Notes under the pieces: generated by a model
Database searches by the model: none
Seen by the model: only the letters and a program-made list of their open reading frames with translations
What the model was told of the DNA's origin: nothing
From: Sutterella sp. AM11-39
GTDB taxonomy: Bacteria; Pseudomonadota; Gammaproteobacteria; Burkholderiales; Burkholderiaceae_F
Reading direction: 5' to 3'
Assembly: GCF_003472385.1 (NCBI RefSeq)
Contig: NZ_QRLV01000009.1
Span: forward strand, 1 to 64,000
Length of the DNA: 64,000 bases
Made by a program: the position numbers and the translations under genes
Shown: piece after piece, positions 4,734 through 54,181 of the stretch
Layout: every line of letters begins with the position of its first letter
Numbering within the stretch: the stretch's first letter is position 1

Positions 4734-4809
4734 TGGCTCCCCGAGTTGGGCTCGAACCAACGACCCACGGATTAACAGTCCGTTGCTCTACCGACTGAGC
4801 TATCGGGGA
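4734..4809 (-). tRNA. tRNA-Asn(GTT)
   Basis: A 76-nt cloverleaf on the minus strand. The acceptor stem is TCCCCGA (4803-4809) with TCGGGGA, the D-arm contains AGCTCAGTCGGTAGAGC, the anticodon loop is CTGTTAA with anticodon GTT, the T-arm carries GGTTCGAACCC, and CCA is encoded (4734-4736). It stands alone with its own promoter and terminator. Confidence 0.97.
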
Positions 4810-33248: not shown

Positions 33249-33280
33249 AAAAAGCCGCCGGATTTTGCGTTCCCGGCGGC
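33249..33280 (-). terminator. Attenuator terminator upstream of aroG
   Basis: GCCGCCGG (33280-33273) pairs with CCGGCGGC (33261-33254), followed by TTTTT, 84 bases before the aroG ATG and 25 bases after the leader peptide stop. CGGCGG inside the leader-coding sequence (33334-33329) is complementary to the 5' arm (CCGCCG, 33279-33274), which would give an antiterminator. Confidence 0.88.
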
Positions 33281-33305
33281 TGGCAGTACCTTTCAAATGC
33301 TTGCG

Positions 33306-33383
33306 TTACGCGTGCGCACGTACTCCTTCCGCCGAGGGGGCGAAATAAAAGGAGAAGAAATAAAATCGTGCCGTGTAAAGCAT
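33306..33383 (-). CDS. Phe/Tyr-rich attenuator leader peptide of aroG
   Basis: A 25-codon ORF starting at ATG 33383, with stop TAA at 33308-33306. Residues 7-14 read FYFFSFYF; in total there are five Phe and three Tyr codons in 25. It is placed exactly as in amino-acid attenuators: promoter, leader peptide, then a terminator overlapping a possible antiterminator, then the biosynthetic gene. The ribosome binding site is weak (GGAA about 13 bases upstream). By analogy with PheL, a ribosome stalled by lack of charged tRNA-Phe or tRNA-Tyr would allow read-through into aroG. The composition and layout are seen directly; the mechanism is inferred. Confidence 0.8.
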   Translation of the reverse strand: MLYTARFYFFSFYFAPSAEGVRAHA

Positions 33384-33450
33384 TTGAAAAAGGCAGTTCC
33401 AGATTTTCTAAGCAGAGCCTGATTCGTATTTCAGGCCGACTCAGGGACTT

Positions 33451-33479
33451 ACTCTACTCGATCTTGTGACGAAGTGCAA
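33451..33479 (-). promoter_or_regulatory. Putative aroG promoter
   Basis: Minus strand -35 TTGCAC (33479-33474), 17-bp spacer, -10 TAGAGT (33456-33451). It would start a ~280-nt leader containing the peptide and attenuator. Just upstream (33484-33510) is an AACACC/GGTGTT inverted repeat of unknown role. Confidence 0.5.
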
Positions 33480-33674
33480 ACGCAAAAACACCAATAAGAT
33501 CAGGTGTTTTGCTTAGATTGTCACATTTTTTCTCTGAGTCGAAACGAAAATTCAAAATGCTGGATTCAACCTTTGTGTCAGCGCGTGTTAAGTTTTCTCC
33601 TCGGTGCGACTGATGACGAAAAACAATTTCGCCGGTCGCGTTGTTGAGTCCATTTTTTTGCGTTTGTTTGCGCG

Positions 33675-34667
33675 ATGCCGCTGCTTCAATCCGACTACAA
33701 GGCTCCCCGCTGGTTGCCCGGAGCGCATCTTCAGACCATCGTTCCCGCCCGTTTTTTCCCGCGACCCGACGTGCAGTATCGAAGAGAAATTGTGGATATG
33801 CCCGACGGAGACTTCATCGTGTTGGATTGGTCGGAACCGGAGCCGATGGAGCTCAACGCGCCGGTGTTGGTGCATTTCCATGGATTGGAGGGTGATTCTC
33901 ACAGTCATTACGCAGAAGCGCTGATGCACGAGTGTGTCAAATGCGGTTGGCGAGGCGTCGTTGCGCATTTCAGAGGATGCGGCGGTCTGCCCAATCGTTT
34001 GCCGCGGGCGTACTTTGCCGGCGACAGCGACGATTGCGATTGGATACTGAGGACGGTTCACGAACGTTTCATTACGGCGCCGATTTATGCGGTCGGCGTG
34101 AGCCTCGGCGGTAACTACATTGCCAAATACATGGGCGAACGCCCGCAGGACGCATCTTTCCTGACGGCGGCCGTCTCGATCGGTGCGCCGGTGGATTTGG
34201 TGGCCGGAAGCGAAATCATGAGCCGCGGCGCCAACAAGCTCTACGAAGAAATGTTTTTGTCGACGCTCAAGGAAAAGCTCATTGACAAGGCCAAGCGTTT
34301 CCCGGATCTCATTGACATCAACAAGGTAAAGAGCTGTAAAACGCTCTACGACTTTGACAGTGTCTACACGGCGCCGATCCATCACTTCAAGAGCGCGATG
34401 GAGTATTGGACCTTGTGCTCGGCCAAGCGCTATCTCAAAAACGTCACTAGACCGCTGTTGCTTTTAAACGCCAAAAACGATCCCTTCCTGCCGCGCTGGG
34501 CGTTGCCGACGGAAAAGGACGTGAGCGACTGTGTCTATCTTGAGCAACCGGAAGAGGGGGGTCACATCGGCTTTCCCCGCGGCAATCCGCCCGGAGACCT
34601 GGGTTACCTGCCCGAGCGCGTCATGCGGTTTTTCTCGGTGTTTGAACCCAAAATTGAAAGCGTTTGA
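33675..34667 (+). CDS. Alpha/beta-fold hydrolase, YheT family
   Basis: A 330-residue alpha/beta hydrolase of the YheT/EMB8 (ABHD1/3-like) family. PRWLPGAHLQTIVPA at the N terminus is a family signature. The nucleophile Ser is in GVSLGGNY, the Asp in NAKNDPF and the His in GGHIGF, giving a full catalytic triad; the oxyanion region is FHGLEG. Characterised homologues act as carboxylesterases, but the natural substrate is unknown. It stands alone, divergent from aroG. Confidence 0.85.
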   Translation: MPLLQSDYKAPRWLPGAHLQTIVPARFFPRPDVQYRREIVDMPDGDFIVLDWSEPEPMELNAPVLVHFHGLEGDSHSHYAEALMHECVKCGWRGVVAHFRGCGGLPNRLPRAYFAGDSDDCDWILRTVHERFITAPIYAVGVSLGGNYIAKYMGERPQDASFLTAAVSIGAPVDLVAGSEIMSRGANKLYEEMFLSTLKEKLIDKAKRFPDLIDINKVKSCKTLYDFDSVYTAPIHHFKSAMEYWTLCSAKRYLKNVTRPLLLLNAKNDPFLPRWALPTEKDVSDCVYLEQPEEGGHIGFPRGNPPGDLGYLPERVMRFFSVFEPKIESV

Positions 34668-52533: not shown

Positions 52534-52926
52534 ATGATCGGTAACTACAACTACGGCACCGGCCGTCGCAAGAGCTCCGTGGCTCGCGTGTTCATCAAGC
52601 GCGGCACGGGCAAGATCGTGATCAACGGCCGCGATCTCAACGAATTCTTCAAGCGTGAAACCGGCCGCATGATCGTCATGCAGCCCCTGCAGCTCACCGA
52701 AAATGTCGAAACGTTCGACATCATGGTGAACGTGACCGGCGGCGGCGAATCCGGCCAGGCTGGTGCTGTGCGCCACGGCATCACCCGCGCTCTGATCGAC
52801 TACGATGCCGGTCTCAAGCCCGTCCTGTCGGCTGCCGGCCTCGTGACCCGCGATGCCCGCGAAGTCGAACGTAAGAAGGTTGGTCTGCGCAAGGCCCGCC
52901 GCGCCAAGCAGTTCAGCAAGCGCTAA
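52534..52926 (+). CDS. rpsI: 30S ribosomal protein S9
   Basis: S9, 130 residues, with [33 protein letters not shown] and the C-terminal [11 protein letters not shown] that reaches the P-site tRNA. It is cotranscribed with rplM. AAGGTGG precedes the ATG. Confidence 0.98.
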
Positions 52927-53002
52927 TCGTTCATTCGCAAGCGTTCTGCCTCGGTATACTTTTGCAAACTTTGGTTTGCGAAGAAAGCCGGGGCAAGAAG
53001 CG

Positions 53003-53039
53003 AAAAAACCGTCTCCCTTTCCCGGGCGGCGGTTTTTTT
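53003..53039 (+). terminator. Intrinsic terminator of rplM-rpsI
   Basis: AAAAAACCG (53003-53011) pairs with CGGTTTTTT (53030-53038) around a GC-rich interior, ending in seven T. Confidence 0.8.
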
Positions 53040-53110
53040 ATGCCTGCTGCCGGAGCATTTTTCCTGCCAAAGATATCAGACAAAAAAGATTCTTCGGGGA
53101 GTTTTTCGAC

Positions 53111-54181
53111 ATGCAGGAAAAGAAAATCAAGGCGGGTATTGTGGGTGGAACGGGGTACACCGGCGTGGAGCTGCTGCGTTTGTTAAGCCGGCACCCCAAT
53201 GTTGAGGTCTGTGCCATCACATCGCGCAAGGATGCGGGTACCAAGGTGACGGCCATGTATCCCTCGCTCAGAGGCTTCATGGACGATCTGGTGTTTACGA
53301 CGCCCGAAGAGGCCGAACTCACCGCTTGTGACGTGGTGTTCTTTGCGACGCCGCATGGGGTGGCCATGAGCATGGCGCGCGAATTGACGGCTGCCGGCGT
53401 CAAGATCATTGACTTGGCAGCGGATTTCCGTTTGCGTGATACGGACACGTTCAAGACTTGGTACAAGCTCGATCATGCCTGCCCTGATCTCCTGGAAGAG
53501 TCTGTCTACGGGCAACCCGAGACCATGCGTGAGAAGATGAAAAACGCTCGGATTCTCGGCATGGCAGGCTGCTATCCGACCTCCATCGAATTGGGACTCC
53601 TGCCTTTGATGGAATACGAAAAGGCGCATCCCGGTACATTTGACCTAAAAACCATCATTGCCGACAGCAAGTCGGGTATTTCCGGCTCCGGCAAGAAGGC
53701 GGACGTTTCGATCATTACGGCCGAAATGTCGGACAATTTCCATGCATACGGTCTTAAAGGACATCGCCATACCCCCGAAATTGAGCAACAGCTCAAACTC
53801 CTGGCCGGTACGGACGATCTGAAATTGACGTTTGTGCCGCATCTGTTGCCGACCATTCGAGGGATTCATTCGACGATTTACATTCGTCTGAAGGATGCTA
53901 CGACTCAGATTGATCTTCAGAAGCTCTATGAAGATCGCTTTGCGGATGAATACTTCGTCGATGTGATGCCTGCCGGATCAACGCCTGAAACGAGAAGCGT
54001 GCGCGGCTCCAACTTCCTGCGTCTGGCAGTTCATCGACCGGGCAACGGCGACCTGATCATCGTGCTGGCGGTGGAAGACAACCTGGTCAAGGGAGCTGCG
54101 GGGCAGTCGGTGCAGGCGATGAACATTCTCTTCGGATTGGATGAAAAGACGGGGCTGGACGCGCCTGCGTTGGTGCCGTGA
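53111..54181 (+). CDS. argC: N-acetyl-gamma-glutamyl-phosphate reductase
   Basis: ArgC (type 1), 356 residues, reduces N-acetylglutamyl phosphate in arginine synthesis. The NADP loop is [13 protein letters not shown], the catalytic Cys154 lies in GMAGCYPTS, the acid/base His in [10 protein letters not shown], and SGSGKKAD follows. ATG 53111 has GGGGAG about 10 bases upstream; the upstream frame crosses the rpsI terminator. Promoter not resolved. Confidence 0.94.

Follow-up and report, generated by a model that had tools for sequence, protein, structure and literature searches.

In Sutterella sp. AM11-39, aroG, the gene for a class I DAHP synthase, is very probably controlled by ribosome-mediated attenuation of transcription, in the manner of the trp and phe leaders, as judged from the sequence of the locus and of its relatives. 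The DNA analysed (contig NZ_QRLV01000009.1, positions 1 to 64,000; this whole stretch of 64,000 nucleotides is referred to as the window) carries on its minus strand a leader peptide ORF with a run of Phe and Tyr codons, an antiterminator that excludes a U-tailed terminator hairpin, and then aroG (Table 1). The main parts of this arrangement had been pointed out in the initial annotation and were confirmed: the 25-codon leader with FYFFSFYF runs from 33383 to 33306 and encodes MLYTARFYFFSFYFAPSAEGVRAHA, the complementary blocks CGGCGG (33334-33329) and CCGCCG (33279-33274) are present and belong to a longer pairing of eight pairs, and the terminator upstream of the DAHP synthase gene consists of a hairpin and TTTTT, ending at 33249.

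Architecture of the aroG leader region

The aroG product scored 535.1 bits against the NCBIfam aroFGH profile (cut-off 173.2) and 567.5 bits against the AroG equivalog profile, half a bit below the cut-off of 568. The aroG ATG is preceded by an SD-like AGGGAG of its own, and the distance from the U-run to the aroG start is 83 nt. The upstream neighbour (33675-34667) lies on the opposite strand and is divergent from the leader and aroG, so that no other minus-strand gene is seen for the terminator to serve. The nearest relative among the best 80 related loci was that of an uncultured Duodenibacillus, with 94% AroG identity.

Table 1. Features of the aroG leader region, in coordinates of the window, with the basis of each assignment.
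Feature	Position	Strand	Basis
aroG, class I DAHP synthase, 353 aa	32104..33165	minus	NCBIfam profile scores
Segment 4 and U-run TCCGGCGGCTTTTT, terminator	33249..33262	minus	fold; U-tailed hairpins in relatives
Segment 3 AGCCGCCGGG, partner of segment 2 in the antiterminator and of segment 4 in the terminator	33272..33281	minus	
H0 3' arm, spacer after leader stop (CAAGCATTTGAAAGG...)	33282..33303	minus	complementarity
Leader peptide ORF, 25 codons and TAA	33306..33383	minus	translation; similar leaders in relatives
Segment 2, antiterminator 5' strand CUCGGCGG, then AAGGA	33324..33336	minus	sequence; GGCGG conservation
Segment 1 (protector) CUCCU..UCGCC, within the Phe/Tyr codons, partner of segment 2	33339..33354	minus	centroid fold
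Regulatory codons FYFFSFYF, codons 7-14	33342..33365	minus	translation; positional aromatic enrichment in relatives
H0 5' arm, start codon and surrounding leader initiation region	33378..33401	minus	complementarity to post-stop spacer
Candidate -10 box TAGAGT	33451..33456	minus	rule-based
Candidate -35 box TTTGCA, 18-nt spacer to -10	33475..33480	minus	rule-based

The antiterminator (2:3) is formed by eight pairs between CUCGGCGG (33336-33329) and CCGCCGGG (33279-33272), and the terminator (3:4) by GCCGCCGG and CCGGCGGC, followed by TTTTT; as segment 3 is common to both, the antiterminator excludes the terminator. For 1:2, the outer strand in the minimum-energy fold was partly different from that in the centroid fold. 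When the fold of the leader RNA was compared with shuffles, a z of -3.36 was obtained, with 2 of 200 shuffles equally good. The leader terminator was not listed by a generic terminator scan, which covers loops of 3-8 only. Rfam 15 (4227 models) gave nothing above gathering score in the leader, the only matches at E ≤ 10 being sroD (E 0.2) and L31-Firmicutes (E 1.5), both far below their gathering scores. Elsewhere in the window, a tRNA gene (4737-4809, minus strand) was the sole Rfam match above threshold.

A candidate promoter following the rule TTTGCA-18-TAGAGT was found in the window and in the related loci L001 and L004, with 67, 58 and 56 nt, respectively, between the end of the candidate -10 box and the leader ATG. 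The same rule gave nothing in L003, L005 and L006 and another candidate in L002; TAGAGT was also seen by eye in L003 and L005, at other distances. No promoter was detected for the leader by a generic promoter scan of the window, and no clear Shine-Dalgarno sequence was seen in the sequence upstream of the leader ATG.

In the proposed mechanism, a ribosome translating the leader while charged tRNA-Phe and tRNA-Tyr are plentiful would reach the stop codon, and segment 2 would be covered or left to pair with segment 1; with segment 2 unavailable, 3:4 would form and transcription would stop before aroG. If tRNA-Phe or tRNA-Tyr were short, the ribosome would stall on the aromatic codons and cover segment 1, 2:3 would pair, and RNA polymerase would continue into aroG. 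The pairing states were simulated with ribosomes placed on the leader, kinetics being ignored. In the window, the ribosome-free fold had 8.0 expected 1:2 pairs and no 2:3 pairs, and with a ribosome at the stop codon 2:3 amounted to 0.2 pairs; stalls at Phe-7 and Phe-12 gave 7.4 and 6.8 pairs of 2:3, respectively. Agreement with the mechanism is partial: simulated stalls at codons 8-10 and 13-14 gave no 2:3, and those at the non-aromatic codons 2, 4 and 6 gave as much of it. Over 76 leaders the picture was uneven, aromatic stalls raising mean 2:3 pairing more than one pair above its level at the stop codon in 42 and above that of the ribosome-free state in 53.

Conservation of codons and hairpins in related loci

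The best 80 related aroG loci from one protein scan were taken for comparison; L012, whose contig is cut 48 nt upstream, was excluded, which left 79 usable loci. A leader was scored where an ATG ORF with at least five Phe or Tyr in nine consecutive codons lay no more than 300 nt upstream. Such an ORF was found in 75 of the 79 loci (76/80 including the window), the misses being L017, L027, L035 and L060. Dinucleotide shuffling of these upstream regions produced one in 42 of 4000 cases (~1%), and genuine sequence from other parts of these loci and of the window contained one in 2 of 2946 stretches of 300 nt. A U-tailed hairpin separates leader from gene in every one of the 76 leader-bearing sequences, and GGCGG occurs within the leader in 74; the leaders without GGCGG are still able to pair, CUGGCG with CGCCAG in L016 and CUGGUGG with CCGCCAG in L064. 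The initial annotation had made its attenuator reading depend on conservation in relatives, and leader codons and hairpin proved to be conserved in loci of Sutterellaceae, Oxalobacteraceae, Burkholderiaceae and Alcaligenaceae, which supports that reading.

Two kinds of selection can be told apart in the leader. The first GGCGG stood in codon phase 2, 0 and 1 in 67, 5 and 2 of the 74 leaders, respectively (66, 4 and 4 when the last GGCGG was counted), and its retention across three reading phases indicates that the leader tail is conserved as RNA. At 10, 9, 8 and 7 codons before GGCGG, the share of Phe, Tyr and Trp was 89, 97, 97 and 91%, and from three codons before to two codons after GGCGG it was 0-1% (74 leaders); TTT/TTC and TAT/TAC were all in use (38 non-redundant leaders). 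Since the aromatic codons keep a fixed distance and both synonymous codons are used, it is the coding that is selected there. The distance is roughly what one would predict if segment 2 has to stay uncovered by a stalled ribosome.

Pair counts were made on an alignment of 40 sequences (A1), from which the covariance model used below was also built. The terminator could pair in 92.8% of cells, with 11 changed on both sides (0/500 shuffles as high), and the antiterminator in 82.2%, with 6 changed on both sides (1/500 shuffles). Most helix positions in A1 are nearly invariant, and covariation of the antiterminator is modest: its both-side-changed pairs (2) were matched by 176/500 shuffles and its further pair types (6) by 382/500, the corresponding figures for the terminator being 39/500 and 63/500. 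Sliding the antiterminator by +3 columns gave more both-side changes (10 cells), but only 53.6% of cells were then paired. Swap tests of 2:3 and 1:2 were confounded by base composition, a control region pair being equally strong. In L044 (Candidatus Burkholderia humilis), the leader ORF continues through the terminator to a length of 48 aa, and this attenuator is possibly decaying.

Leader codons and enzyme specificity

The 160 leader peptides collected comprised 127 distinct ones; Phe occurred in all 127 of these, Tyr in 122, Trp in 64 and the three together in 62; the window leader has Phe and Tyr codons and no Trp. In the first 74 leaders, Trp stood mostly six codons before GGCGG (16 leaders, including those of Cupriavidus, Caballeronia and Paraburkholderia). 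To judge from these codons, part of the aroG leaders may sense all three aromatic amino acids.

Alignments around Ser211 of E. coli AroG showed FLSVT in this Phe-sensitive enzyme and FVGIN in the Tyr-sensitive AroF of E. coli. In the Neisseria and yeast enzymes, this position helps to set inhibition by Phe or Tyr; a literature search for the residue at the Ser211 position and inhibition specificity found no paper. The window AroG has Ser (FLSVT), like the Phe-sensitive E. coli AroG. Trp codons have been added in 42 of 103 Ser-type leaders.

An attenuator that is real and senses Phe only, its Tyr codons being passengers, is the first alternative to weigh, and we consider it rather unlikely. Exactly this is reported for aroR of Corynebacterium glutamicum, where the aroR-aroF leader has Phe-Tyr-Phe; according to excerpts of PMC11802643, transcription of aroF increases when Phe is limiting, and Tyr availability is without effect. 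A Ser at the specificity position of the window AroG would fit Phe sensing as well, as would the excess of Phe over Tyr in Ser-type leaders (Y/(F+Y) = 0.29 over 103 distinct leaders), but Tyr is nearly always kept (the 122 of 127 distinct leaders given above), and the leaders of Gly copies, described next, are Tyr-rich to a degree that is hard to explain with idle Tyr codons, although the lineages are few.

Two main-type aroG genes within ~10 kb were found in five genomes around Mesosutterella (G005, G197, G196, G198 and G199), and the question of whether the residue follows the leader was fixed before the duplicated copies were translated. All five genomes have one copy with Gly and the other with Ser. 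In the four with both leaders (loci L254 in G005, L251 in G197, L252 in G198 and L249/L250 in G196), the leader of the Gly copy is Tyr-rich (MLNHVYGAYYYYGFFRLPAERVLWCA in two, MSFASDFYYYGYYLYRPRGGRVRRI in two) and that of the Ser copy is Phe-rich (MNYRARFYFTFNFFPCPAERVVSCA and a one-residue variant of it; MIRSARFCFSFGFFRCQAERVVEGV in two); the Gly copy of G199 is without a leader. Tyr outnumbers Phe in both of the distinct Gly-type leaders (F 4, Y 11), compared with 2 of the 103 Ser-type leaders. The two enzymes of G196 and of G198 are ~96% identical, and their leaders diverge in the choice between Tyr and Phe codons, among other differences, the specificity residue differing in the direction that matches the leader codons; these duplicates would represent a natural experiment in the joint re-tuning of an attenuator and an allosteric site after gene duplication. 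In the protein tree two Ser/Gly changes are needed, a single Gly clade being weakly rejected (AU p 0.033, test chosen post hoc), and gene conversion is an alternative account of the Ser/Gly pattern. The association of Gly with Tyr-rich leaders comes from few lineages, two independent pairs being too few to reach significance. Through the duplicated copies, Tyr sensing distinct from Phe sensing gains indirect support.

The wider proposition, for and against which we would give about equal weight, is that the aroG leader is a codon-programmable sensor co-evolving with the allosteric specificity of the enzyme. Single Ser-type enzymes would have leaders with a mixture of Phe and Tyr codons; among duplicates, the leader would be rich in Tyr codons where the enzyme is Gly-type (Tyr-sensitive-like) and rich in Phe codons where it is the Ser-type sister; in some Burkholderiaceae and Alphaproteobacteria, Trp codons would be added. 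One RNA element would thereby fill the role that in enteric bacteria falls to TyrR and TrpR. An extra helix would, in Sutterellaceae, lock the leader start in the terminated state.

A helix over the leader start in Sutterellaceae

This helix (H0) would be formed in the window by CUUUUUCAAAUGCUU, around the leader start, and the complementary AAGCAUUUGAAAGG, after the stop codon (E -19.0 / -17.8; z -3.3 against spacer shuffles). Sixteen Sutterellaceae-type leaders were compared, comprising those of named Sutterellaceae, others with an AroG identity of 72% or more and that of the second aroG copy in Mesosutterella. Their H0 regions had a mean z of -1.77 (se 0.25) against within-locus shuffles, with p ≤ 0.05 in 7/16, and the controls gave -0.25 (far-upstream block) and 0.05 (codons x spacer). 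H0 was absent from L006, L199 and L201 and weak in L198, L202 and L087. As a general feature it was rejected outside Sutterellaceae, where 33 leaders of other families (34 given) had a mean z of -0.16. Swap tests over 40 loci gave p ~0.003 for H0 (p 0.66 in the Oxalobacteraceae-like and 0.002 in the Burkholderiaceae-like subset), and the control codons x spacer scored more strongly still because the loci share base composition; within-locus shuffles are the fairer control. Since H0 crosses 2:3 (pseudoknot) and nests with 1:2 and 3:4, it would belong with the terminated state, and in Sutterellaceae it might act as a brake on antitermination while the leader carries no ribosome.

Strong folding and a helix over the leader start would also fit control of translation or of transcript stability, or control by a protein acting on the attenuator hairpins, the leader ORF then being of secondary importance. 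Nothing specific favours such control, and it is made very improbable by the U-run, which follows directly on the hairpin and lies the said 83 nt before an aroG start with an SD-like sequence of its own, and by codon-level selection at a fixed distance. Least credible of all, and hardly worth entertaining, is a small functional protein encoded by the ORF with an ordinary terminator behind it: the peptide tail (PLAEG, SNPKAVE, PLADREG) does look conserved within groups, but GGCGG lies in other phases in L013, L014, L022, L044, L067, L069 and L073 and yields different peptides there, aromatic codons are retained at a single distance, and with a divergent gene upstream the terminator has no other gene to end.

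Relation to known systems

Ribosome-mediated attenuation has long been known, and the aroG attenuator is of a known kind; the coupling of codons to allostery and H0 could make it more than that. Attenuation by Phe-codon leaders likewise operates at E. coli pheA (pheL) and pheST, in the excerpted descriptions of these; there a terminal-branch gene or a tRNA synthetase is controlled, whereas the window leader precedes the gene for the first common enzyme and has Phe and Tyr codons (in some lineages also Trp).

Similar in design is the aroR leader of C. glutamicum, which is also described before aroF in excerpts of PMC4046766. Like the window leader, it is a Phe/Tyr leader peptide before a DAHP synthase operon; unlike it, it belongs to another phylum and is reported to have three aromatic residues and to be indifferent to Tyr, a comparison made by description only. 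The initial annotation had suggested that attenuation of the first pathway enzyme by a Phe- and Tyr-sensing leader would be a distinct solution, and knew of no description of it in this group. For Burkholderiales, no report of the aroG leader was found in the open-access literature among the matches listed; the principle is not new, Phe/Tyr-leader attenuation of DAHP synthase being already known in kind from aroR-aroF as excerpted. The main text of PMC2965389 contains no aroG, DAHP or phenylalanine, and the excerpts of PMC4833913 contain nothing on an aroG leader. For B. cenocepacia, PMC5688073 reports 82 short 5'UTRs. In Acholeplasma, the uORFC-13-1 motif upstream of aroF (24 representatives; excerpts of PMC8632094) resembles the window in having a uORF with at least one Phe codon beside a terminator before a DAHP synthase gene, and differs in belonging to another phylum; here too the comparison is by description only.

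TyrR, for which regulons from six lineages of gammaproteobacteria are described in excerpts of PMC5343134, performs the same physiological task as the aroG leader but is a protein regulator. The search for TyrR that had been suggested for this genome was done in relatives. The TyrR HTH family was without a match in all 11 related genomes; among 150 genomes of the order there were 3 matches at E ≤ 0.001, of which 1 was above the cut-off (the E. coli control was positive), and in another search none of 15 genomes had a match above the cut-off. The aroG leader, for which there is no Rfam model, would offer a mechanism of entry-step control in a large bacterial group from which TyrR is nearly absent.

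Occurrence in whole genomes

The covariance model was run on the 150 whole genomes of the order and matched 39 of them at E ≤ 0.001. In 34 of the 39, the match lay directly upstream of aroG, the places of DAHP synthase genes having been found separately. A best E ≤ 2.8e-6 was reached in exactly those 34 genomes, in every one of which the best match was beside aroG; the other five had a best E ≥ 5.9e-5, not directly upstream of aroG. The model had been built in part from sequences of at least three of these genomes (G002, G006 and G114), whose matches are therefore not independent. All 30 loci retrieved around model matches had an adjoining aroG. A class I DAHP synthase was present in 115 of the 150 genomes, which puts the leader in at least 34 of 115. 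A further 81 genomes had a DAHP synthase without an adjacent model match, and in the upstream regions of the 60 examined no leader followed by a terminator was found; two of these (L128 and L131) passed the simple ORF count, with a hairpin that overlaps the ORF and does not lie 3' of it, and some terminator-like hairpin was present in 12 of the 60.

The family of Parasutterella (G006) was represented by 67 genomes, of which 39 had a model match (E ≤ 1e-5); a DAHP synthase was detected in 46 (E ≤ 0.001). All but two of the 39 matches lay beside a DAHP synthase gene (37/39; in G171 the gene is a fragment at the contig end); in G170 the contig stops before the gene, and in G167 no DAHP synthase gene was found. 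Eight genomes had the gene and no match, seven of them without a leader and one (G201) with a leader on closer search. A search of the phylum (398 genomes) gave a match at E ≤ 1e-4 in 47. Loci from the model searches were inspected for 83 matches, which are part of the total and count some genomes twice, and 83/83 had aroG with an upstream ORF containing at least four Phe, Tyr or Trp in nine codons; six paralogue regions (L081-L086) had no ORF with at least four Phe or Tyr in nine codons. In the alphaproteobacterium Paracoccus, the leader is MSHRMPCTISFYWFRCPQRSRV, which the model matched less strongly (E 6e-5 and 5e-4).

Within the window itself, weak matches to the terminator half of the model were seen on both strands at 52999-53042 (E 0.47 and 7.3); this is probably a chance hairpin at or inside ORF 52853-54181. 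G167, a small genome in which no class I DAHP synthase was detected, has its match (L244) at a degraded leader, MSYNVRFSLCILILPRRKG; by eye, a different coding sequence lies 3' of it, and the leader is possibly a relic after loss of aroG.

Leaders like MITVATSYFWYFSYDSSLAAGGSRSI precede aroG in 14 genomes of 6-9 Mb (L211, L212, L214-L216, L218-L223 and L227-L229), in which the AroG specificity position is Ala (FMAVT). A gammaproteobacterial (Pseudomonas) origin of genomes of this type was unsupported, the GAM42a probe site being found in 0/19 in a search without a positive control. The ALF968 16S probe site was present in 7 of the 14 and in 0 of 6 others, so that Alphaproteobacteria are likely for at least those seven. 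On two Paracoccus plasmids (L231 and L232), a short FYWF leader and a terminator precede a plasmid-borne DAHP synthase gene, and both strands of the antiterminator are changed, to CCAGCGG/CCGCTGG from the usual CTGGCGG/CCGCCAG.
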